Assembly: GCF_001543895.1 (NCBI RefSeq)
Contig: NZ_JYIJ01000017.1
Location: forward strand, 496,001-560,000
DNA: 64,000 nt
DNA from: Carbonactinospora thermoautotrophica
GTDB lineage: Bacteria; Actinomycetota; Actinomycetes; Streptomycetales; Carbonactinosporaceae
Direction of reading: 5' to 3'
This document shows, in pieces, positions 8,913 to 46,450 of this stretch. The notes beneath the pieces were generated by a model that was not told the origin of the DNA, did not search any database, and saw only the letters and a program-made list of their open reading frames with translations. Position 1 is the stretch's first letter; the number at the start of each line of letters is the position of its first letter. A program made the translations under genes and the position numbers.

Positions 8913-10124
8913 GTGCCAGCCGAAGAGCTGACCATCGGCAAGCGCATCCGCGCCTGCCGCCGCTTCCGGGGTATGACCCTGCAGGAACTCGCCGACCTCT
9001 CGGGCCTGTCGAAGAGTTTCCTGTCGATGGTCGAGAACGGCCAACGGACCATAGATCGGCGCTCGCACCTGGATGCCATCGCTGACGTGCTGCAGGTGTC
9101 CTTGAGCGAGATCACCGGGCAGCCCAGCGCGAGCGTCGACCGGGCGAGCATCGCGGCACACGCGGCCGTGCCGGCGTTGCGTGTCGCGCTGATGGACAGC
9201 ACGCTCGACGACCCGCCCGAGGTGCCCGCGCGGCCGTTGCCAGACCTCACCGAGGACATGCGCGCCGCTGCGCCGCTGCGCAGGCGGAGAGACTACGCGA
9301 GGCTCGGCAAACTGCTGCCCGATGTCATCACTGAGCTGCACGTCATCGCGTCCACCGGGAGCAGCGCGCAGCGTGCCGAGGCGCTGCGGCTGCTCATCCA
9401 GGCGTGCCAAGCCGCGGGGTTCATGCTCAAGTACCTGGGGTACGCGGATCTGGCCGCGTTCGCCGCTGAACGGGCGCGGGACGCGGCTGAGCGCCTGGAC
9501 GATCCGGTATGGACGGGTGTGGCCGAGTTCATGCACTCCCACGCTCTCATGTCCGCACGAGCCCGGTCTCGCGCCCTGCGCACCAGTGTCCGCGCGGCCG
9601 AGCGGCTGGAACACCATCTGGACGACGGGCCAACGGCCGAGATGTACGGGATGCTGCACCTGACAGCAGCGCTCGCGAACGCCACCCTCTCGCAGGACAG
9701 CACAGCGTGGGATCACCTCGACGAGGCAGCCCAGATCGCCGCGCGCACCGGTGAATGCCCCGCTGAGCCGCTGCACATGGGATTCGGGCCGACGAACGTG
9801 GGGTTCTGGCGTGTGGCCGTGGCGCTGGAGTTGGGTGAGCCAGACAAGGCCGTCGAAGCGGCGCGCGAGGTGGAACCGGGCCGGCTTGGTGCGGGACGGC
9901 AGGCGGCGTACTGGAGTGACGTGGGTCGGGCGCTGGCGCAGATACCAGGCAAGCAGCGGGAGGCGGTCAAGGCGCTGCGCACGGCTGAGCGGCTGGCGCC
10001 GCAGATGGTCCGGGCGAACCCGATGGTGCGCGACACGGTGGCCACGATGCTGAACCGGGCTCGCGCGCAGGCGGGCGACCGGGACCTGCGCGGCCTGGCA
10101 TACCGGATGGGCATCCCGCACTGA
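8913..10124 (+). CDS. XRE-family regulator with TPR-like C-terminal domain
   Basis: A 403-aa protein. Residues about 6-62 form a Cro/C1-type helix-turn-helix (IGKRIRACRRFRGMTLQELADLSGLSKSFLSMVENGQR). The remaining roughly 330 residues are alanine-rich paired helices resembling tetratricopeptide repeats. This architecture is abundant in actinomycetes, where it often controls an adjacent small gene set, sometimes responding to a peptide or small molecule. The GTG at 8913 follows TGGAGGTGA. A perfect inverted repeat lies directly after its stop codon (10125-10140), followed by the small-gene cluster it probably regulates. Confidence 0.85.
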   Translation: MPAEELTIGKRIRACRRFRGMTLQELADLSGLSKSFLSMVENGQRTIDRRSHLDAIADVLQVSLSEITGQPSASVDRASIAAHAAVPALRVALMDSTLDDPPEVPARPLPDLTEDMRAAAPLRRRRDYARLGKLLPDVITELHVIASTGSSAQRAEALRLLIQACQAAGFMLKYLGYADLAAFAAERARDAAERLDDPVWTGVAEFMHSHALMSARARSRALRTSVRAAERLEHHLDDGPTAEMYGMLHLTAALANATLSQDSTAWDHLDEAAQIAARTGECPAEPLHMGFGPTNVGFWRVAVALELGEPDKAVEAAREVEPGRLGAGRQAAYWSDVGRALAQIPGKQREAVKALRTAERLAPQMVRANPMVRDTVATMLNRARAQAGDRDLRGLAYRMGIPH

Positions 10125-10140
10125 GTTCACAGCAGTGAAC
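10125..10140. promoter_or_regulatory. candidate operator, GTTCAC inverted repeat
   Basis: GTTCAC-AGCA-GTGAAC starts at the base after the XRE stop codon and lies 83 bp upstream of the first small gene (10223). A short symmetric site next to an XRE regulator is a natural operator candidate; the assignment is inference only. Confidence 0.45.
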
Positions 10141-10161
10141 TTTCCGGGCGTGATCTTCCCT

Positions 10162-10222
10162 ACGGTCTCCCTCGTCGTGACAGAGAGTAGCGGCGCTGCT
10201 ACGTGATGATGAGGGAGACCGT
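10162..10222 (+). promoter_or_regulatory. leader with long-range stem covering the ribosome site of the 51-aa gene
   Basis: ACGGTCTCCCTC at 10162-10173 is perfectly complementary to GAGGGAGACCGT at 10211-10222. The second arm contains the Shine-Dalgarno sequence and ends directly before the ATG at 10223. Between the arms, GTAGC/GCTAC (10187-10202) can form an inner hairpin. If the transcript starts upstream, the 12-bp stem would hide the ribosome site, a layout typical of translational switches. No known riboswitch consensus was recognised. Confidence 0.55.
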
Positions 10223-10378
10223 ATGGTCAGCCGCGAGACTCTTGAACACACTCTCGCCGCGTTACGCGATCAGCCGGCCCAGCCGCCCGTCCCGATCCGC
10301 CTGGTCCCGGGCGGAACCCCGCTGCCGGCCCGGACCCCGGCCGGGATCCCCAGACAGCACCGAGGTGAGGGCCGGTGA
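10223..10378 (+). CDS. small hypothetical protein, first gene of XRE-linked cluster (51 aa)
   Basis: ATG at 10223 with ribosome site GAGGGAGA, 51 codons, stop TGA overlapping the next GTG (GTGA). The product begins MVSRETLEHTLAALRDQ, an amphipathic helix, then becomes proline/arginine-rich. No family was recognised. Its start lies at the end of a 12-bp stem that could regulate its translation. Short size, coupling to the next gene and a good ribosome site support it as a real gene. Confidence 0.55.
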   Translation: MVSRETLEHTLAALRDQPAQPPVPIRLVPGGTPLPARTPAGIPRQHRGEGR

Positions 10379-10815
10379 CCATCCCCCCGCGGCAGAGCCC
10401 CAACGGCCACGTCACCCACTTCCCGCCGGCCCCGCCCACGCTGGAGGAATACCTGCGGGACATCCGCGCCGGGGCGCAGATCCAGAACCCGACCCTGGCC
10501 GACCTGATGACCTACCGGGAATGGACCGGCCTGCTGGCCGGTCTGGTGGTGAGCCTGCTCGACACCCACCCGAACACATCCGGCCCAGCGTCGAAGCCCA
10601 CGCCAGGAGCTGGGGGTGGAAAGGGTGACCGAGCCGATCACCGGGATGCGCGCCGTGGTCGACCCCGCGTGTGCCACCTGCCACGGCACCGGCCAGGTGA
10701 ACGGCAACCCGTGCGGCCCGTGCTCGCTGCCGCTGACCCCGAGCGAGATCGCCTTCCTGTACGGGAAGAAGGTGCCCGATGCGCCGGCTCAGCCGTGAGG
10801 CCGAGGTCACGCTGA
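10375..10815 (+). CDS. small hypothetical protein overlapping the CxxC gene
   Basis: GTG at 10375 overlaps the previous stop. The first 80 residues look protein-like (PTLEEYLRDIRAGAQIQNPTL, then DLMTYREWTGLLAGLVVSLL). From about codon 84 the frame continues for 63 more codons as arginine-rich sequence that overlaps the CxxC protein gene (10616-10798) in another frame. The tail is probably not selected for in this frame. Either the protein really ends in this unusual tail, or a frameshift has removed an earlier stop. Confidence 0.5.
   Translation: MTIPPRQSPNGHVTHFPPAPPTLEEYLRDIRAGAQIQNPTLADLMTYREWTGLLAGLVVSLLDTHPNTSGPASKPTPGAGGGKGDRADHRDARRGRPRVCHLPRHRPGERQPVRPVLAAADPERDRLPVREEGARCAGSAVRPRSR
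10616..10798 (+). CDS. small zinc-ribbon-like protein with two CxxC motifs (60 aa)
   Basis: GTG at 10616 lies six bases after AGGAG (10605-10609); a second GTG at 10625 is possible. The 60-aa product has the motif CATCHGTGQVNGNPCGPC near residues 19-36, which can bind one zinc ion in the manner of DnaJ-type or GATA-like knuckles. Its function is unknown. It overlaps the end of the preceding frame by 183 bp and the next gene by 20 bp, so the small genes are packed end to end. Confidence 0.6.
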   Translation: MERVTEPITGMRAVVDPACATCHGTGQVNGNPCGPCSLPLTPSEIAFLYGKKVPDAPAQP

Positions 10816-16049: not shown

Positions 16050-17267
16050 TCAGGCGGACATCTTCTTCTGGAGGTTCTCGTCGAGCGCGGCCAGGAACTC
16101 CTGGGTGGTCAGCCAGGGGGTGTCGCCGCCGACCAGGAGCGCCAGGTCCTTGGTCATCTTGCCGCTCTCGACGGTTTCGACGCAGACCTGCTCGAGCTTC
16201 TTGGCGAAGTCCACCACCTCGGGCGTGTTGTCCAGCTTGCCGCGGTGCTGCAGGCCCCGGGTCCAGGCGAAGATCGACGCGATCGGGTTGGTGGAGGTCG
16301 GCTTGCCCTGCTGGTGCAGGCGGTAGTGCCGGGTCACCGTGCCGTGCGCGGCCTCCGCCTCCACGGTCTTGCCGTCCGGGGTCATCAAGACGCTGGTCAT
16401 CAGGCCGAGCGAGCCGAAGCCCTGCGCCACGGTGTCGGACTGCACGTCGCCGTCGTAGTTCTTGCAGGCCCACACGAAGCCGCCCTCCCACTTCAGGGCC
16501 TGGGCGACCATGTCGTCGATCAGCCGGTGCTCGTAGGTGATGCCGGCCTTCTCGAACTGGTCCTTGAACTCGGTCTCGAAGACCTCGGCGAACAGGTCCT
16601 TGAACCGGCCGTCGTAGGCCTTGAGGATCGTGTTCTTCGTCGACAGGTAGACCGGGTAGCCGCGCTCCAGCCCGTAGTTGAAGCAGGCGCGGGCGAAGTC
16701 CCGGATCGAGTCGTCGAAGTTGTACATGCCGAGCGCGACGCCGCCGCCCTTGAACTCGGCGACCTCGAACTCCATCGGCTCACCACCGTCGGCCGGGGTG
16801 TAGGTGATCGTCACCTTGCCCGGGCCGGGCACCACGAAGTCGGTGGCCTTGTACTGGTCGCCGTGGGCGTGACGGCCGATGATGATCGGCTTGGTCCAGC
16901 CGGGCACCAGCCGCGGGATGTTGCTGATGATGATCGGCTCGCGGAAGACCACGCCGCCGAGGATGTTGCGGATGGTGCCGTTCGGCGACTTCCACATCTT
17001 CTTGAGGCCGAACTCCTCGACCCGGGCCTCGTCCGGCGTGATCGTCGCGCACTTGACCCCGACGCCGTACTTCTTGATCGCGTTCGCCGCTTCGACGGTG
17101 ACCTGGTCGTCGGTGGCGTCGCGATTCTGGATCGACAGGTCGTAGTACTTCAGGTCGATGTCCAGGTACGGCAGGATCAGCTGGTCCTTGATGAACTTCC
17201 AGATGATCCGGGTCATCTCGTCGCCGTCGAGCTCGACGACGGGGTTCTGGACCTTGATCTTCGCCAT
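16050..17267 (-). CDS. icd: isocitrate dehydrogenase (NADP+), dimeric eukaryote-like type
   Basis: A 405-aa enzyme converting isocitrate to 2-oxoglutarate and CO2. The start [20 protein letters not shown] is diagnostic of the homodimeric, eukaryote-type IDH. It is followed by the substrate-binding [12 protein letters not shown] and the [13 protein letters not shown] segment. Length matches the roughly 400-aa family, not the roughly 740-aa monomeric enzyme found in many actinobacteria. ATG at 17267. Gene order icd-mdh makes a short TCA operon read toward 15 kb. Confidence 0.95.
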
Positions 17268-38434: not shown

Positions 38435-38701
38435 ATGGGTGAGCCAGCCGAGATCTCCGTGCGGGACCTGAGGAACCACGTGAGCGAGGTTCTTCGCCGG
38501 GTAGAGGCCGGCGAACGCCTCCGGGTGACCGTGGATCGCCGGCCGGTGGCCCAGATCATCCCCCTGCCACTGAAGCGGGAAGCGTTGCCGGTCGCCGAAT
38601 TCCTCCGCTGGCGGGAGCGGACAGGCGGTGCGGATCCCCAGCTCACCGACGAGCTTCGTGACGTGCTGGCCGACACGACCGACGATCTGGAGATCGGGTG
38701 A
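38435..38701 (+). CDS. antitoxin of Phd/YefM type (VapB partner)
   Basis: An 88-aa antitoxin. The N-terminal Phd/YefM DNA-binding fold is EISVRDLRNHVSEVLRRVEA, followed by GERLRVTVDRRPVAQIIP. The acidic C-terminus (DELRDVLADTTDDLEIG) would wrap and inhibit the toxin. The ATG at 38435 is likely used on a leaderless transcript. Its stop overlaps the toxin start (GTGA). It binds, by inference, the palindrome at 38410-38425. Confidence 0.88.
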   Translation: MGEPAEISVRDLRNHVSEVLRRVEAGERLRVTVDRRPVAQIIPLPLKREALPVAEFLRWRERTGGADPQLTDELRDVLADTTDDLEIG

Positions 38702-39078
38702 GGGCCCTCGCCGACACGAGCCTGTTCATCGGACGCGAACAGGACCGGCCGCTCAACGGGGACCTGCCCGAGGAACTCGTCGTGTCCGTCGTCACCGTGG
38801 GCGAGTTGCGGCTCGGCGTGCTCATGGCCGCCACCCTGGAGGCCCGGAGCAGGCGGCTGGAAACGCTGCGGCTCGTCGAGTCGCTGGAGCCGCTGCCCAT
38901 CGACGACCAGGTCGCCGCCGCATGGTCGAGGCTGGTCGCCGAGCTCAGGGCAGCGGGCAGGAAAGCCCCGATCAACGACACGTGGATCGCCGCCACCGCG
39001 CTCGCCCACGACCTTCCCGTCGCCACCCAGGACGCCGACTACGACCACATGCCCGGTCTCAAGGTCATCCGGCTATAA
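38698..39078 (+). CDS. vapC: PIN-domain toxin VapC
   Basis: A 126-aa PIN-domain ribonuclease. The acidic metal-binding residues are in RALADTSLFIG (Asp), SVVTVGELRLGVL (Glu), KAPINDTWIAATALAH (Asp) and VATQDADYDHM (Asp). VapC toxins cut tRNA or rRNA and stop growth when the antitoxin is degraded. GTG start overlaps the antitoxin stop by 4 bp. The intact catalytic set suggests an active toxin. Confidence 0.9.
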   Translation: MRALADTSLFIGREQDRPLNGDLPEELVVSVVTVGELRLGVLMAATLEARSRRLETLRLVESLEPLPIDDQVAAAWSRLVAELRAAGRKAPINDTWIAATALAHDLPVATQDADYDHMPGLKVIRL

Positions 39079-39230: not shown

Positions 39231-39972
39231 TCACTCCGGGAGGACCTGGAGGCCGAGTCCGGCTAGCAGCGTGTTCGCCTGGGCGACCGAGATGATCGCG
39301 CCCTTGAGGTTGGGGGTGTCGTTGAGGCTGATGTCGCCGAGGTCCGCGCCGCGCAGGTCGGCACCGGTGAACTTCGCTCCGCGCAGGTTCGCGCCGTGGA
39401 GGCTGCATTCGTCGAAGATCGCGTTGGTGAAGTTGGCTCCGCCGAGGTCGGCGCCGCTGAAGTTGAGCCGCCCGAGGCGTCGGCCGGAGAAGTCCAGCCC
39501 GGGAGGATGGCCATCTTCAGCAGGCAGCGGGCGAACTCGTAGCCGATGCCTCGGACCTTGGTGAAGGCCGCTCCGGTGAGCCGGCAGTCGAGGAAGCGGC
39601 AGCCGCTGATCACCGCGCCGCCCCAGCGGGAGTTCGCCAGGTCGATGCCGCGGAAGGTCGCGTCTTCGGCTTCGGCGTCTGTCAGGACGAGGAACGATGC
39701 CGACCGCCGACCCGGGTGGTCTCGTCGAGGAACGCCCCGGTGAGGTCGGCGTGGGCGAGCCTGCAGTCCTCGAACTTCGCGGCGCGCAGATTGACGCCCC
39801 GCAGATTGGCCTCGGTGAAGTCGCATCGGCAGAAGACGTAGGGCTCCTCGCCAGGGTCGCCGACGAGCTTGCGCAGGTCCATCCCGGAGAAGTCGGTGTC
39901 CTCGATCTCACGCTCGTGGCGCAGCAACTCCTCGGGCGTGCGGGTTCCGGGGTGGTCGGGCAGTGCGTCCAC
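39231..39972 (-). pseudogene. pentapeptide-repeat protein gene broken by two frameshifts
   Basis: Three consecutive stretches in three different frames together make one pentapeptide-repeat protein of about 245 residues. The first (39972 to about 39705) has DTDFSGMDLRKLV and DFTEANLRGVNLRAAKFEDC. The second (about 39710-39505) has EDATFRGIDLANSRWGGAVI and TGAAFTKVRGIGYEFARCLL. The third (about 39505-39231) has LDFSGRRLGRLNFSGADLGG and LRGAKFTGADLRGADLGD. The frameshifts near 39705 and 39505 disable translation unless they are sequencing errors. Such proteins form right-handed beta-helices; some protect DNA gyrase. Confidence 0.75.
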
Positions 39973-40010: not shown

Positions 40011-40457
40011 CTACGGCCTCGTGAGCGCTGACAGCTCGTCAGCCGCCTCCCGACGCCACTGATCGTCCCGGCGCATATAGTCCAGCAGCGAAGCAGCTCG
40101 CACGCGTCGGTGCTTGCCGACCATTCGATACTCGATCTCACCCGCCTCGAGAAGGCCGATGAGGTATGGGCGCGAAACGTTGAGCAGGTCAGCGGCCTGC
40201 TGGGTGGTCAGCTCGGCGTGAGTCGGCACCACGGAGACGCCGTGCCCGGCCGCCATGTAGGCGAGGATCCGCGCGAGCAGTTCGACGGCGCCACGCGGCA
40301 CCACCAGCTCTTCCCCGTCCTCCTCGACCACGAGCCGAACCTTCTCCCGCCCCTCCGGGTGTCGTGCGAGGTAGGCGCGAACATGGTCCAGGGCCGCGTC
40401 AGCCGTCGAGATGTCATCCTTGTCCGGCTCGACGGACTCGATAGCCAATAGCGTCAT
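40011..40457 (-). CDS. excisionase-type HTH protein, orphan antitoxin-like regulator
   Basis: A 148-aa protein. The C-terminal half is an excisionase-family winged helix (LTTQQAADLLNVSRPYLIGL, then EIEYRMVGKHRRVRAASLLDYM). The N-terminal half resembles the dimerising part of the same antitoxin family (VRLVVEEDGEELVVPRGAVELL). Members usually precede a PIN-domain toxin on the same strand, but here the pentapeptide pseudogene follows and no PIN gene is seen, so it appears to be an orphan. ATG at 40457 with GGGGAGGAG. 9-bp repeats upstream may be its operator. Confidence 0.8.
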   Translation of the reverse strand: MTLLAIESVEPDKDDISTADAALDHVRAYLARHPEGREKVRLVVEEDGEELVVPRGAVELLARILAYMAAGHGVSVVPTHAELTTQQAADLLNVSRPYLIGLLEAGEIEYRMVGKHRRVRAASLLDYMRRDDQWRREAADELSALTRP

Positions 40458-40755: not shown

Positions 40756-41505
40756 TCATTTGGTGGCTATCACGTAGAGGCTCCCCCATGCCCGTTTCGG
40801 GTTGGCGATGGCTGGGTCGAAGGTCCACGGCTCGACGCGGCTGAACCGGGCCTCGATGAAGAGGTTGACGAGCTTGTCGTAGTCATAAGCCCAGTAGTGC
40901 GGGCTGTACTTGGCGCTGTCGTCCTGGTCGCGGAAGACGTAGTTGACCAGGTCGAGGTAGGTGTTGAAGTCGTCCAGGCAATCACGGTTGGCGTACCAGC
41001 GGCTCAGCATCTCGGCGAACAGCTCTTGGTCGCCGTTGAGGTAGCCGCGCAGTACGAACCTGGCGTCGGGAACGCCAGTCACGACCTGGCCTTCTGGCGC
41101 GAGGATGCGGTGAACCTCGCGGGCGAAGAGCTTGGCTGAGCGCGGGTAGTCGATGTGCTCCAGGAAGTGTTCAGAGAAGACGAACTCGGCTGTGCCGTCA
41201 GCCAGCGGGATGCCCTCGCGTACGTCCCAGATGAGGTCGGCGGGCGGTACGAGGTCGATGTTGAGGAATCCAGCGATGCGGTGGTTGCCGCCGCCGATCT
41301 GAATCCGACTCGTAGCCAGGTCAGTGACTCCGTGCGGATACTGACGTCGGCTCGTCCAGTGGTTCTTGTACAGCTCGATTTCCTTCAGGGCGGCACGGAA
41401 TGTGCGCGCGAGCCCATGAGTGATCGCCGGTGAGGCGAGGGCCGAGACCAACTGCCGCCGGATCTTGTCCACCTGTGCCGGGCTGAGGCTGTCAGTGTCG
41501 CGCAT
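40756..41505 (-). CDS. SAM-dependent methyltransferase (type 11 family)
   Basis: A 249-aa class I methyltransferase. SAM-site elements are IQIGGGNHRIAGFLNIDLV (about residue 75), the acidic DLIWDVREGIPLADGTAEFV and the SEHFLEHIDYPRSAKLFARE post-motif, as in enzymes with the pattern LNLGSG...GWINVDL. The first 65 residues are helical. The substrate is unknown. ATG at 41505 with GGAGAAGGTG; an extension to 41604 reads into the previous gene. It is the last gene of a four-gene minus-strand cassette, 34 bp after the 484-aa unknown. Confidence 0.85.
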   Translation of the reverse strand: MRDTDSLSPAQVDKIRRQLVSALASPAITHGLARTFRAALKEIELYKNHWTSRRQYPHGVTDLATSRIQIGGGNHRIAGFLNIDLVPPADLIWDVREGIPLADGTAEFVFSEHFLEHIDYPRSAKLFAREVHRILAPEGQVVTGVPDARFVLRGYLNGDQELFAEMLSRWYANRDCLDDFNTYLDLVNYVFRDQDDSAKYSPHYWAYDYDKLVNLFIEARFSRVEPWTFDPAIANPKRAWGSLYVIATK

Positions 41506-41539
41506 TGGGTACACCTTCTCCCTCCAAGCGGCGGTCTTT

Positions 41540-42994
41540 TCAGGAGTCGAGTCCCGCGCTGGCTGGGCGCTCGCCCGCTGGCCGCTGTCCGGGGATGCCT
41601 GCACCGTGGTTCATCGCTGACTCTGGGTTCCACCTGTTGTTGCGCATGAGGGTGTACTTGATGTCCACCAGACGCGGCGCGATCGTGAGGTCCAACGGCT
41701 CGACGGGGCGCAGGACGCCGGGGCCGGTCAGCTCAGCGCGGAAGATCCTGTAGTCCAGGTTGGGGTAGGCCGGGTTGATGCCGACCTCTCCCTTGGGGAT
41801 CGTGCCGTTGAATGGTGTGACGATGTCCATGTGGTTCCAGTAGTTCCACGCCTGAAGGGCCTTGTACTGATCGAAGTAGAAGTAGAAGTCTGGGTAGCGT
41901 CCGAACGTTCGCAATTCCCGATGGATCAGGTGGCCGATCAGGGGGGCGACTCGCTTGCGCAGCTCGTCGAACTCCCAACGCGTGCGGTGCCAGTCGTCCG
42001 GGCTCGCGTACGGGGAGAAGAGGCGAGCATGGACCAGGAAGCACAGCCGTTCAACCAGGTAGCGCATCGCATGGTCAGGATCGAGGGTGTCGTCCACTTG
42101 ACGTAGCAGGCAGGCGAGGCCCTTGGGGGAAGGACGGAACTTGGTGAGGTCGAACCTGCCCGCCATACCGGGAAAGGCGGCGAACAGCATCTCCTTGTAG
42201 AGCCAGTTGTTCATCTCCCCGGCGTCTTTCAGGCGCTGGGTGCGCTCGGTGGTCGAGTGCAGCATCAGGTACTCGGCCAGCGTCTCGAAATATAGGTAGC
42301 CCAGGATCGGCAATCGTCCGATCGTTTCGTCGAGCACACGCAGGAATGTCTCAGCGGGCACGTCGGCCTGGTCGTGGGAGATGGCGGTGGACAGGGCGAG
42401 GAACGCTGTGGAGTTTTTCACTCGACTGACGATGGTCTCGCGTAGCCGGTGCCGCTCGGCCTTGGACAGCAGGTATTCCAGATGCAGGAAGATCTGTAAG
42501 TGGATCTCGCCGAGTCGCAGGTAGTCGATGCCAGCCAGGCCCCTGTAGGCGTCGGGGGGCAGGTTGATCTCCACGATGAGCGGTGTGGGCGGACCTGCCA
42601 GGTTGCCGATCTTTTTGACGAACGCGGGAGCTTCTTTGGTCAGGACATACTCGCCGAGATTGTGCATTCGGTAGCCGTCGCCCTCGGACGTGAGCGGCGA
42701 GCAGTAGACGCTGCCGACCAGGCAGCCGCCCGAGGGGTAGAGCACTCCGTGCTCGTTGATCTGCTCCAACGCGTGCGTCACATGTAACAGATGGAGCCTT
42801 GTTCCCCTCGTCAGCGCGTCGAACAGACTGTTGCGCACCAGCAACTCCCCGTTCGGTGTCTCATGAACCAGTCGCTGCCACCACTGCGCTGTTTGCTCGG
42901 CCAACGGATCCTCACCGGTCCGTGGCTGGCCCAAAGGGTGAAAGAAAACGTGCGCGTCAGCCCACTCGTGGTAGAAGTCCGGGAAGTCGATCAC
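41540..42994 (-). CDS. unrecognised 484-aa protein of the cyclase/HD/methyltransferase cassette
   Basis: I do not recognise this family. It is soluble and lacks a signal peptide. The segment LHLLHVTHALEQINEHGVLYP (about 67-87), then GGCLVGSVYCSPL and a later Tyr-Val/Glu-containing stretch, recalls the start of ADP-ribosyltransferase-like or RNA 2'-phosphotransferase-like folds (H-T ... I...G), but that is weak. The middle is all-helical (IFLHLEYLLSKAERHRLRET), and the C-terminus is aromatic-rich (YPDFYFYFDQYKALQAWNYW). GTG start overlaps the HD gene stop by 4 bp, so the two products are made together. Confidence 0.8.
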   Translation of the reverse strand: MIDFPDFYHEWADAHVFFHPLGQPRTGEDPLAEQTAQWWQRLVHETPNGELLVRNSLFDALTRGTRLHLLHVTHALEQINEHGVLYPSGGCLVGSVYCSPLTSEGDGYRMHNLGEYVLTKEAPAFVKKIGNLAGPPTPLIVEINLPPDAYRGLAGIDYLRLGEIHLQIFLHLEYLLSKAERHRLRETIVSRVKNSTAFLALSTAISHDQADVPAETFLRVLDETIGRLPILGYLYFETLAEYLMLHSTTERTQRLKDAGEMNNWLYKEMLFAAFPGMAGRFDLTKFRPSPKGLACLLRQVDDTLDPDHAMRYLVERLCFLVHARLFSPYASPDDWHRTRWEFDELRKRVAPLIGHLIHRELRTFGRYPDFYFYFDQYKALQAWNYWNHMDIVTPFNGTIPKGEVGINPAYPNLDYRIFRAELTGPGVLRPVEPLDLTIAPRLVDIKYTLMRNNRWNPESAMNHGAGIPGQRPAGERPASAGLDS

Positions 42995-43767
42995 ACAAGC
43001 CCCCGATCGGTCAGAGCGGTGATGACGCTCTCCGTGCTGCCTATCCCTGCGGCATACGCGGATTCGGATCGCACAACGAGATCGAAGGCGAACTCCTTGA
43101 GCCGATCAGGGGCCACGACTCGGACGAAGCGGTCGTCCGGCCACCACTTCAGCTTAGGCAGCCGGTAGCGATCCAGGGCGTCAGCGGTCTTCAGCAGGTC
43201 GCTGACGGTGCGCGCCGTTGCATGGTCGGTCTCATCCACGGGCGTGAACTCGGCGTACGGGATCTCATGCAGCCGTATCGCAACGGCAGCCTGCCGAATC
43301 CGCTCGGGTTGATTGTTCGGCAGTCCGAAGTGTTCTAGGACCATCGCGGCGCTACGCAGGAGCCAGCGCGCCCCTCGCTCCCCGTGGCCTCGATCATCTT
43401 GGTCGTGCTCTCGGCGACAGTCGTGGACCGCCGCCGCCACGATCAACGTGACCGTTTCCTCAGTGCCCAGCTTGCGGGTCTCGGCCAGGAGTGCGGCGAG
43501 GGCGGCGGTGCGCATCGCATGCCGTACTCCGTGGATGGAGTCGGCCAGCCGAGGCTCCGCGTACCACGTGAGCGGAAGGCCGGTGAGCGGCAGTAGCCGA
43601 CGAGCAAACGGACGCAGGGCAGGAAGCTCAGGATCGCGGGCGGTTCGAAAGCTGGGGCGGTGCGCGGTGATCCAGCCCACCGTTGTCGCATCCATGTACT
43701 GGTGGCGGGGAAGCTGCTTGCGTTCGGCTAAGGCGACCAGGCTGTCGCCAGGCACAGTGGTACTCAT
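42991..43767 (-). CDS. HD-domain phosphohydrolase-like protein
   Basis: A 258-aa protein with an HD-type metal site: SIHGVRHAMRTAALAALLAE supplies the first His, AAAVHDCRREHDQDDRGHGE the HD pair and a further His, and HEIPYAEF the next His. HD enzymes hydrolyse nucleotides or cyclic nucleotides. The upstream neighbour is a (truncated) class IV adenylate cyclase/CYTH gene, so a linked synthesis/breakdown function is conceivable. ATG at 43767 after GTAGGAACG; stop overlaps the next gene (GTGA). Confidence 0.8.
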   Translation of the reverse strand: MSTTVPGDSLVALAERKQLPRHQYMDATTVGWITAHRPSFRTARDPELPALRPFARRLLPLTGLPLTWYAEPRLADSIHGVRHAMRTAALAALLAETRKLGTEETVTLIVAAAVHDCRREHDQDDRGHGERGARWLLRSAAMVLEHFGLPNNQPERIRQAAVAIRLHEIPYAEFTPVDETDHATARTVSDLLKTADALDRYRLPKLKWWPDDRFVRVVAPDRLKEFAFDLVVRSESAYAAGIGSTESVITALTDRGLV

Positions 43768-43835
43768 CGTTCCTACCCCCCGGTGATTGACGACCATGGG
43801 ATGTGAGGACGCGGCTCTGTCCGGCCGCACTCCGG

Positions 43836-44294
43836 CTACTTGGCGGCCTGTGCTTCCTCGAAGGCGCGCGTGAACTCCTTCAACTCCTGCTCGGTCATCA
43901 GACGCACACCCAGCTCGTCGGCCACGCGCTGGATCCGTTCAGTCGCCGCCGCAGCTTCGGTCGCCTCGCTCTCCACCAGCACCTCGAACTCGGCGTGGTG
44001 TCCCCACGCCTCGCTCCATTTCACCGCGATCTCGACATCGCGGTACCGGAAATTGCGGCGCTGGTTGAATGCCCGGTGCATCGTTTCCTCGAACCCGAGC
44101 GCGTTGAAGATCTGTACCGCCTTCTCCACATCATCGAGGGCGATCGGAATCTCGATCTCGGGGAAGGCTGTGCCCTGCCCGATCCGGTTGGTCTTCAGCG
44201 AGATCTTCCCGGTGCCGGCGGTGATGCCCTTGACGACCTTGAGCAGCATCTCGGGCAGCACGTAGAAGTAGATGTCCCTATCGTCCGCGCCTAG
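43836..44294 (-). pseudogene. class IV adenylate cyclase / CYTH-domain gene, 5' end removed by IS481
   Basis: The remaining 152 codons begin at the IS border (LGADDRDIYFYVLPEMLLK) and continue with TGKISLKTNRIGQG, FPEIEIPIALDDVEKAVQIF, FRYRDVEIAVKWSEAWGHHAEFE and a C-terminal helix. This is the CYTH fold of CyaB-type cyclases or thiamine-triphosphatase-like enzymes, but the N-terminal strand with the ExExK motif is missing. Without the start codon and catalytic strand the gene is dead. It was the first gene of the minus-strand cassette, so the promoter of the whole group has probably been lost too. Confidence 0.8.
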
Positions 44295-45358
44295 GTGTGC
44301 TGTCCCGGGACGTTGGTGACAGCGGCGTGTCGGTCTTGAAATGAGGTGGACCTCCCGGGCAGGTGTGGTGCTGCCACGCAATCACACCAAGCGTTCGGGA
44401 GGTCCTCGATGCCCCACCGTAACGCACCCTTGTCCGAGACCGGGCGTCTTCGGCTGGCCCGCTGCGTGGTCGAGGACGGGTGGCCGCTGCGGGCCGCGGC
44501 CGAGCGGTTCGGGGTGTCCCACACCACCGCCAAGCGATGGGCCGACCGGTACCGCCAGCAGGGCGCGGCGGGCATGGTCGACCGGCCCAGCCGCCCGCAC
44601 CGCTCCCCGACGCGCACACCAGCGGAGGTGGAAGAACGGATCGTGGCGTTGCGGCGGGCGCACAAGATCGGGCCGGTGCGGATCGCCGCCCGGGTCGGGG
44701 TGGCACCCTCCACGGTGCACCGGGTGCTGGTGCGCCGGGGGCTGCCCCGCCTGGACTGCTGCGACCGGGCCACCGGGGAGCCGATCCGCCGCTACGAACG
44801 CCGCGCACCCGGGGAGCTGGTGCACGTGGACGTGAAGAAGCTCGCCCGGATCCCCGACGGGGGCGGGCACCGGGTGCTGGGCCGGGCCGAGGGCCGCAAG
44901 AACCGTGGCGGGTACGGCTACGCCTTCATCCACACCGCGCTCGACGATTACTCCCGGCTGGCCTACTCGGAGATCCTCACCGATGAGAAAGCCGGCACCT
45001 GCGCAGGCTTCCTCACCCGCGCGGTGGCCTGGTTCGCCGCCCACGGGGTGACCGTGGAGCGGGTGTTGACCGACAACGCCTGGGCCTACACCAAGACCAC
45101 CTGGCGCACCACCTGCGCCCGGCTGGGTATCCGCCCGGACTACACCCGCCCGTGGCGGCCGCAGACCAACGGCAAGGTGGAACGCTTCCACCGCACCCTG
45201 GCCGAGGAATGGGCCTACCACCAGCCCTACCCCTCCGAGGCCGCCCGCCGCGCGGTGTTCGGTGACTGGCTGGACTGGTACAACTACCACCGGCCCCACA
45301 CCGCCCTCGGCGGCCACCCACCCGCCACCCGCGTCACCAACCTGTCCGAACAACACAC
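44295..45358 (+). mobile_element. IS481-family insertion sequence
   Basis: A 1064-bp element with imperfect terminal repeats: left end GTGTGCTGTCCCGGGACGTT, right end (inverse) GTGTGTTGTTCGGACAGGTT, both continuing GGTGAC. It is bordered by CTAG (44291-44294) on the left and TTAG (45359-45362) on the right. IS481 elements prefer CTAG sites; the unequal borders argue against a simple insertion with target duplication. One transposase gene fills the element. It separates two 5'-truncated divergent genes. Confidence 0.85.
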
Positions 45359-45362
45359 TTAG
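44409..45362 (+). CDS. IS481 family transposase (DDE type)
   Basis: A 317-aa integrase-core transposase. An N-terminal helix-turn-helix (RAAAERFGVSHTTAKRWADR) and a second HTH (IAARVGVAPSTVHRVLVRRG) are followed by the catalytic core with Asp141 (LVHVDVKKLARI), Asp222 (ERVLTDNAWAY) and Glu258 (TNGKVERFHRTL), and the tail WYNYHRPHTALGGHPPA. All three acidic residues are present. ATG at 44409 after GGGAGG. The stop TAG lies in the TTAG border sequence, so the terminal codon is supplied by the target DNA. Confidence 0.93.
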   Translation: MPHRNAPLSETGRLRLARCVVEDGWPLRAAAERFGVSHTTAKRWADRYRQQGAAGMVDRPSRPHRSPTRTPAEVEERIVALRRAHKIGPVRIAARVGVAPSTVHRVLVRRGLPRLDCCDRATGEPIRRYERRAPGELVHVDVKKLARIPDGGGHRVLGRAEGRKNRGGYGYAFIHTALDDYSRLAYSEILTDEKAGTCAGFLTRAVAWFAAHGVTVERVLTDNAWAYTKTTWRTTCARLGIRPDYTRPWRPQTNGKVERFHRTLAEEWAYHQPYPSEAARRAVFGDWLDWYNYHRPHTALGGHPPATRVTNLSEQHT

Positions 45363-46450
45363 CGCTTTTCGCCGAGCACCTGGACATTCCGCTACGGCTG
45401 GTGCAACGTGCTGCGGTAAGCCCCGGAGGCGAAGATCCCCTTGGCTCAGTGGCTCCCTTGCTGGAAGAAAGCGGTGACGATCCGGTGAATCGCCGTCAAT
45501 TTCTCGCCGCGACTACTGTCCTGGCACTCCAAGACAGCTCGGAGACGAGCGCGCTTGGCTGGCGTGACGTCCGGCAGGTCGAGCTCGCGGTGCAAGGGCT
45601 GACCGCCTTGGACGACGCCCAGGGCGGCGATGACCTGTTCGAGATCGCGGCCGGACAGCTCCAGCGGGTCCAATCTCTCCTCAACGAGACGAGCTACACC
45701 GACGAGATGGGTAGCCGTCTCCTTCGCGCCGCGGGCCGGCTGGCCGAGCACACCGGCTGGCTCGCCTTCGATGCCTACCGCCATCAAGCAGCCCGTGCCT
45801 ACTTCAACGAGGCGCTTTACCTGGCTGAACTCGCAGGTGATTCGCAGCTCGCGGTGCTCACCTTCGCCAGCATGTCGATGCAGGCGCGGCACGCAGGGCG
45901 GCTGCGCGAATCAGTCGCCGCAGCCCGAGCGGCCAGAGAACGAGCTGCCCGGTGGGCACCGCCGAGGCTGCTGTCCGAACTGTGGATTCGCGAAGCCTAC
46001 GCTCTCGCCGAGATGCGCGATCCTCAGTTCCGCAAGGCTCTTCATGAAGCGTACCGGGCGTTTGAATGCTCCGACCCGCCAGCCGCCGACGACTGGTACG
46101 CGTTCTACGACGACGCTCACTTCCTGGTGTCCGAAGCTTCATGCAACGCCCGCTTCGGGGATCATCGACGCGCGGTCGCCGTCTGGAGTCAGGCACTGCG
46201 CCAGCACGACGCCTCGTACGTCCGCAACCATGCTCTGTACAACCTGGCGTACGCCGACTCCCTTGTCCGTGTGAAGGAACTTGAGGAAGCCTGCCACGTG
46301 GGGTCCATCGGCGCCGAGATTCTGAAGCGCGGCGTCACCTCAACAAGGACCCGGGTGAGACTCCAGCAACTGGTCAGCGCGATGCGGGGTTTCCGCAGCG
46401 AGCCGGTCGCAGCCGAGTTCCTTGCCCGGTATGGAAACATGGCCGCATGA
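45363..46450 (+). pseudogene. XRE/TPR regulator fragment, N-terminal DNA-binding domain removed by IS481
   Basis: The open frame begins at the IS border with FAEHLDIPLRLVQRAAVSP, a segment that in XRE/TPR regulators directly follows the helix-turn-helix, then NRRQFLAATTVLAL and about 300 residues of paired helices (AARAYFNEALYLAELAGDSQ). The expected first 70-80 residues with the HTH are absent, so it cannot bind DNA as a regulator unless fused. It resembles the intact regulator at 8913. Internal GTG 45401 could start a headless product. ATGA overlap with the next gene. Confidence 0.8.

Follow-up and report, generated by a model that had tools for sequence, protein, structure and literature searches.

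Genes of the U484 cassette

The window analysed here, a stretch of 64,000 nucleotides from Carbonactinospora thermoautotrophica (contig NZ_JYIJ01000017.1, positions 496,001 to 560,000), carries a gene set centred on U484, a protein of 484 residues. A sequence-only reading had described this set as an unrecognised cassette of four genes. All four open reading frames (ORFs) exist on the minus strand, with CYTH first, followed by HD, U484 and methyltransferase, but an insertion sequence (IS) of the IS481 family has cut off part of the CYTH gene.

43836-44290, minus: CYTH/triphosphate-tunnel protein, 5′ end lost (Pfam CYTH, E 7e-6, above the cut-off)
42991-43767, minus: HD-family phosphohydrolase, intact (Pfam HD, E 0.004, below the cut-off)
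41540-42994, minus: U484, the 484-residue central protein, intact (no Pfam match)
40756-41505, minus: class I S-adenosylmethionine (SAM) methyltransferase, intact (Methyltransf_11, E 1e-5, above the cut-off)
44291-45362, plus: IS481-family element, with the transposase at 44346-45362 (NF033577, E 2e-106)

The HD and U484 genes share 4 bp (GTGA, 42991-42994), and gaps of 68 bp and 34 bp separate CYTH from HD and U484 from the methyltransferase, respectively, in agreement with the co-directional arrangement, 4-bp overlap and short gaps reported earlier. The ATG start of the methyltransferase is backed by its homologues. The GC content of the cassette is 63.3%, compared with 71.0% for the window. 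The unit in the window is, then, three intact genes (HD, U484 and methyltransferase) and a CYTH fragment, and the products of the intact genes retain all of the invariant residues of their respective family alignments. The IS481 element starts inside the CYTH gene, and comparison with intact relatives shows that approximately 34 N-terminal residues, including the ExEx[K/R] motif, are gone. What is left of the protein is 67% identical to the intact homologue of Streptomyces filamentosus (locus L008), from about residue 30 of the latter onward.

Conserved linkage in intact relatives

U484 was sought in 84,980 species genomes and found at 51 loci, in which hidden Markov model searches were then made for partner genes. 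The loci belong to Streptomycetaceae, two Micromonosporaceae, three named genomes of the candidate phyla radiation (CPR; Nomurabacteria, Woesebacteria and Shapirobacteria) and two unclassified metagenome-assembled genomes, one of which (L048) is assigned to the CPR as well because its phylum sample includes a Nomurabacteria genome. The neighbourhood survey, which the sequence-only reading had proposed as a check, found the co-occurrence conserved: the methyltransferase is present in 47 of the 51 loci, HD in 46 and CYTH in 45, and all four genes occur together in 45 loci, which is more than chance. Further partners are a TPR-like gene of about 100 codons (39 loci), a nucleoside diphosphate kinase (NDK; 38 loci) and Nudix genes (33 loci). 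As judged from these relatives, the ancestral unit is larger than the cassette in the window and includes the NDK, the ~100-residue protein and the Nudix genes, all of which are absent from the window copy.

In Streptomyces, a divergent Nudix pair comes first, followed by NDK, the ~100-residue gene, CYTH, HD, U484 and methyltransferase. Five CPR-type loci hold the core in altered order. Two of them (L043 and L044) read CYTH-HD-U484-kinase-methyltransferase, L042 reads HD-U484-methyltransferase with CYTH reversed, and L048 reads kinase-deaminase-U484-methyltransferase-CYTH-HD. A P-loop kinase is present in four of the five, the deaminase of L048 is cytidine-deaminase-like, and the Micromonosporaceae copies also have a P-loop kinase added downstream of U484. 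The best evidence that CYTH, HD, U484 and the methyltransferase are functionally linked is that this content was kept across phyla while the order was shuffled. Within Streptomyces, moreover, the pairwise divergences of HD, CYTH and methyltransferase are correlated (r 0.89-0.93). The earlier reading had held that finding the 484-residue protein widely without the other three would count against the cassette; such loci are confined to separate sub-clades, and in the window's clade almost all loci retain the partners. A tree of U484 places the window copy with the Micromonosporaceae and CPR copies (support 98/99), although long branches leave the detail unsure. A larger version of the cassette occurs in S. 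filamentosus (L008), Streptomyces sp. CC208A (L015) and S. bikiniensis (L025), with an additional CYTH-like gene, a HAD phosphatase, an HD-like protein, a Nudix gene and a second methyltransferase.

Searches of Pfam, NCBIfam, PADLOC, PHROG and the PDB sequences gave no match to U484 itself. The sequence-only reading had noted a start possibly resembling that of an ADP-ribosyltransferase (ART) and had suggested profile searches and structure prediction for this protein; no profile match was obtained, and two models gave a weak but reproducible match to an ART domain. The AlphaFold2 model of the window protein has a predicted local distance difference test score (pLDDT) of 82.7 and a predicted template modelling score of 0.84. 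In a VIA-align comparison, the catalytic (ART) domain of diphtheria toxin ranked first with this model (Z 4.1, 4.0 Å over 124 residues), and HEPN-fold toxins matched its helical part. A second, independent model was made for a clade B protein (pLDDT 86.3), the two proteins being about 35% identical, and here the same diphtheria toxin domain was the sole chain among 1,000 with Z above 2 (Z 3.0, 4.9 Å over 139 residues). In both models, the match covers the N-terminal strands and the strands that follow the helical part, so an ART core would be split by a helical insert of about 215 residues. In the modelled layout, residues ~1-175 and ~395-435 form a putative ART-like domain that is split by a helical insert (~176-390). 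Each Z score is too low to stand alone, and it is the agreement of the two models that argues for U484 as a putative ART-like enzyme.

Eleven residues are invariant in 47 U484 sequences (H71, T73, Y97, H111, H165, E237, E241, R359, R362, K401 and E403). H71 lies within an HxT motif and E403 within PKGE, and we infer that H71, Y97 and E403 are candidate ART triad residues. The HxT first strand resembles the HFTH start of DarT. Set against the ART superfamily (diphtheria-toxin type, DarT, KptA), to which it bears this weak structural likeness, U484 has a helical insert of about 215 residues between the putative halves of the core and many extra invariant residues, and no sequence-profile similarity was seen in comparisons with small DarT and KptA alignments. 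A Foldseek search against BFVD gave no significant match, a result that excludes no family. U484 is described in none of the databases or open-licence papers searched, and this central family may be new.

The partner enzymes retain recognisable active-site motifs in the relatives. Among PDB profiles, the cassette CYTH protein is matched best by archaeal proteins (2een, E 2e-7; 1yem, E 3e-7). The CYTH fold takes in RNA triphosphatases, and class IV adenylate cyclases need an HFxxxxExExK motif together with an Ala replacing the second Glu of ExE (PMC8233210). No HF motif precedes ExExR in the 12 complete CYTH homologues aligned (the window copy is without that region), and both Glu residues of the beta-8 ExE motif, E131 and E133, are invariant, also in the window copy. 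By the rule of PMC8233210, these features predict a triphosphatase-type family. A nucleotide-cyclase-like function, as the sequence-only reading implied it, is not supported, even though the fold is common to CyaB. The cassette proteins share ExE with both Glu residues and a conserved Lys/Arg set with the archaeal-type tunnel metalloenzymes (PH1819, 2een; Pfu, 1yem; SaTTM), but all of the complete homologues aligned carry ExExR rather than the ExExK of the CYTH/triphosphate tunnel metalloenzyme triphosphatase motif, the strand YFYVLPxxLLK departs from the usual basic motif, and the window copy is without the N-terminal strand.

For HD, a 15-row alignment shows invariant H83, H115-D116, H128, H167, D190 and D196, the predicted HD-type metal ligands, and the best PDB match is the HD hydrolase 2pq7 (E 3e-4). 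In the methyltransferase alignment, the QxGGG and NxD motifs are invariant or nearly so, with the glycine-rich SAM loop and the acidic residue after beta-2 present; the window protein is 49-53% identical to three CPR copies. The box is canonical in one member of the Nudix pair. The second member combines an N-terminal helix-turn-helix (HTH)-like region with a box without the key Glu (REtlDEtG), and would by analogy resemble a nucleotide sensor and regulator. We liken it to NrtR-type Nudix regulators, HTH-Nudix proteins with a degraded box that are divergent from their operon, although in the cassette protein the HTH is N-terminal and weakly matched, and the gene is not in the window.

Other settings of U484 and surroundings of the window copy

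In four Streptomyces loci (clade C: L038, L039, L117 and L051), U484 directly follows a pPIWI-RE gene (identified in L039 with a Pfam E of 1e-110) and a P-loop-like gene of about 1,030 codons. The trio is conserved, since both partners are 64-70% identical in L117, where U484 lies at 9036-10481. The U484 copy of L051 is broken into several frames. These loci are without CYTH, HD and methyltransferase, whereas the window's clade is without pPIWI-RE, and none of the ORFs next to the window cassette is such a gene. Clade B comprises two sets. The first (B1) combines a TauD-family dioxygenase, an NDP-sugar dehydrogenase, U484 and a family-4 glycosyltransferase, and the second (B2) an SDR epimerase, sometimes a Gfo/Idh oxidoreductase, HD, U484 and a family-2 glycosyltransferase. 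The dioxygenase/dehydrogenase/U484/glycosyltransferase set occurs in L056-L060, L062 and L103-L109, several of which adjoin phage portal or head-tail-like genes. On a Nonomuraea plasmid (L063), a gene with the annotation Pycsar effector family (16312-16902) lies about 5 kb from a clade B U484.

The distribution of U484 is patchy in Streptomyces (32 of 296 genomes) and sparse in the CPR phylum sample (2 of 380 genomes, known ones included); among the other actinobacterial genomes sampled (n = 396), it was not found save for one marginal match, nor was it found among 50,697 phage records. Seven IMG/VR contigs carry it, with portal, head-tail and tail-type genes downstream as read from sequence, not model-confirmed. 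On plasmids of Streptomyces and Nonomuraea, only a distant U484 clade occurs. The patchiness, the plasmid clade, the portal- and tail-type neighbours and the low GC content together indicate that the cassette is probably a horizontally moving module, carried as plasmid or prophage cargo.

The toxin-antitoxin-type genes and IS elements that had been noted around the window copy are indeed there, in the form of a Phd/YefM-PIN pair and the IS481 element described above:

45401-46450, plus: NsdA-family regulator, N-terminus lost (NF053720, E 4e-75, profile positions 93-432)
38435-39078: Phd/YefM antitoxin and PIN-domain toxin pair with a 4-bp overlap

The terminal inverted repeats of the IS481 element (44291-44320 and 45333-45362; 30 nt, 77%) are flanked by CTAG and TTAG without a target duplication. 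These flanks and the N-terminally cut NsdA-family gene would fit an insertion followed by a deletion. NsdA-like genes also flank the loci L035, L036, L105, L110, L113 and L115 (27-31% identity), and the regulator is possibly a former divergent neighbour of the cassette. A search for the cassette NDK elsewhere in the window's genome returned only an NDK of 41% identity, probably the housekeeping gene, and no second CYTH copy was found in that genome. With neither NDK nor the CYTH active site, the window copy has probably lost the ability to carry out the complete pathway. CYTH was also hit by an independent insertion in L034 (3402-5240), where it lies in two pieces around a reverse ORF of 409 codons. 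Directly downstream of the window cassette, an HTH_17/excisionase-like protein is encoded (40011-40457, minus) that may share a mobile segment with it. Beyond that lies a pentapeptide-repeat gene apparently split over two frames (39231-39972, minus), which suggests a frameshifted pseudogene. KptA (PF01885) occurs in 52 of 60 genomes searched and was not found in that of the window.

A proposed nucleotide pathway and its alternatives

The interpretation that we tentatively favor, while giving it somewhat less than an even chance, is that the window holds the decayed remains of a module that spreads horizontally and either makes or processes an unusual nucleotide. The partners that recur act on nucleoside phosphates. 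The most economical interpretation would be a nucleotide-modification pathway with U484 as the key transferase, and from the gene content we infer the following course. The dedicated NDK, together with a nucleotide kinase-like protein in the loci that have one, would raise a nucleotide to the di- or triphosphate. The putative ART-like U484 would then join an ADP-ribose derived from NAD+, or another nucleotide-sugar moiety, to an acceptor, and the methyltransferase would decorate the product. The triphosphatase-type CYTH protein, the HD hydrolase and the catalytic Nudix enzyme could strip phosphates and clear side products, while the HTH-fused Nudix protein with the degraded box may sense a pathway nucleotide and control the divergent operon. 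The product would most likely be a small nucleotide-derived molecule, an antimetabolite or conjugate, useful against phages or other bacteria. The mobile character of the module, its occurrence in prophages and its link to pPIWI-RE suggest a role in conflict, and a secreted product is suggested by the transporters and by the partners that handle sugar nucleotides. Several results weigh against this interpretation. Within Streptomyces, the divergence of U484 correlates with that of its partners at only r 0.52-0.56, and NDK and Nudix genes are not near the CPR copies, so that the steps assigned to them are not universal. The ART assignment rests on matches of Z 3-4, a Foldseek search of the window model against the PDB returned no significant structure (which excludes no family), and hhalign comparisons of U484 with DarT (4 rows, one in the wrong frame) and KptA (20 rows) gave nothing, a weak test.

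One could envision several other roles for the module. Either form of the earlier suggestion, a defence island or a metabolite fragment, may apply. Some U484 homologues lie with pPIWI-RE and in prophages, but no PADLOC matches or clear defence-island flanks were found. A fragment or core of a nucleoside-type specialised-metabolite cluster with an exported product would explain the dioxygenase, NDP-sugar dehydrogenase, epimerase, Gfo/Idh oxidoreductase and glycosyltransferases of clade B, as well as the ABC transporters and amino-acid permeases that recur in clade A flanks, and NDK, Nudix and HAD genes would suit the handling of toxic nucleotides. However, the core resides in CPR genomes of near 1 Mb, which is unusual for antibiotic clusters, and the clade A flanks vary, with no constant neighbours like polyketide or nonribosomal peptide synthetases. 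We think that this is unlikely, although among the alternatives it is the one to which we give most credit. Alternatively, the module might defend against phages or plasmids: on infection, U484 would modify nucleic acid or protein, or the module would swamp the cell with modified nucleotide; CYTH, HD and Nudix would modulate or undo the outcome. The close succession of pPIWI-RE and U484 homologues, which are separated by a few bases in four Streptomyces loci and conserved at identities as low as 64% in L117, the cassettes in predicted prophage contigs, the patchy distribution and the toxin-antitoxin pair near the window copy are all consistent with this idea. Nevertheless, PADLOC 2.0.0 matches none of the four proteins up to E 1, a nuclease, pore or other typical effector is not among the conserved genes, and the flanks of 16 Streptomyces cassettes hold little beyond one type I restriction-modification locus and a few mad2/mad3 matches. 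Transporters and HATPase regulators occur in those flanks, with few known defence genes (no matched control), and no clear enrichment was seen when PADLOC was applied to 106 flanking proteins, a figure based on mechanical gene calls and likewise without a matched control. Defence is next in our ranking, and also unlikely.

Processing or capping of RNA ends is a further scenario, in which CYTH strips the 5′ triphosphate, U484 adds ADP-ribose at the 5′ end, the methyltransferase matures the cap, and Nudix and HD reverse the modification. The combination of triphosphatase, transferase, methyltransferase and Nudix is like capping chemistry, the fold takes in RNA triphosphatases (PMC8233210), and the pPIWI-RE link of one sub-clade points toward nucleic acids. 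The NDK, nucleotide kinase-like and cytidine-deaminase-like partners are better suited to free nucleotides, though, no RNA-binding domain was found, and the ART identity of U484 is weak; we regard capping as improbable. Least probable is cyclic-nucleotide signalling, with CYTH as a class IV cyclase, HD degrading the cyclic nucleotide and U484 as the effector. A weak CyaB match (TIGR00318, 27.9 bits against a cut-off of 57.95) and the frequency of phosphodiesterases among HD domains speak for it, but the CYTH family has neither HFxxxxExExK nor the ExA of true class IV cyclases (PMC8233210), and the window protein is without the N-terminal motif altogether. We rejected this scheme on the CYTH motifs.

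A bolder extension of the nucleotide-pathway interpretation, which we consider doubtful, is that U484 founds an ART-like family in a nucleotide or RNA 5′-end ADP-ribosylation pathway of actinomycetes and CPR bacteria, recruited separately to pPIWI-RE operons and to prophage and plasmid sugar-nucleotide clusters; the module would then be a categorically new nucleotide-based conflict system. We found no description of the cassette in the literature (open-licence papers only), and the claim that it was unrecognised has stood up, for a conserved and probably mobile set of nucleotide-type enzymes. The message of the window itself is modest, as it holds a damaged copy that serves as a pointer to intact ones. 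That the core is conserved from Streptomyces to the CPR in spite of its rearrangement strongly supports the existence of a pathway that annotation has missed, and since U484 occurs beside pPIWI-RE and in prophages, involvement in biological conflict can be tested directly. Should U484 prove to be an ART, the nucleotide-centred systems of bacteria would gain a branch that uses NAD+.

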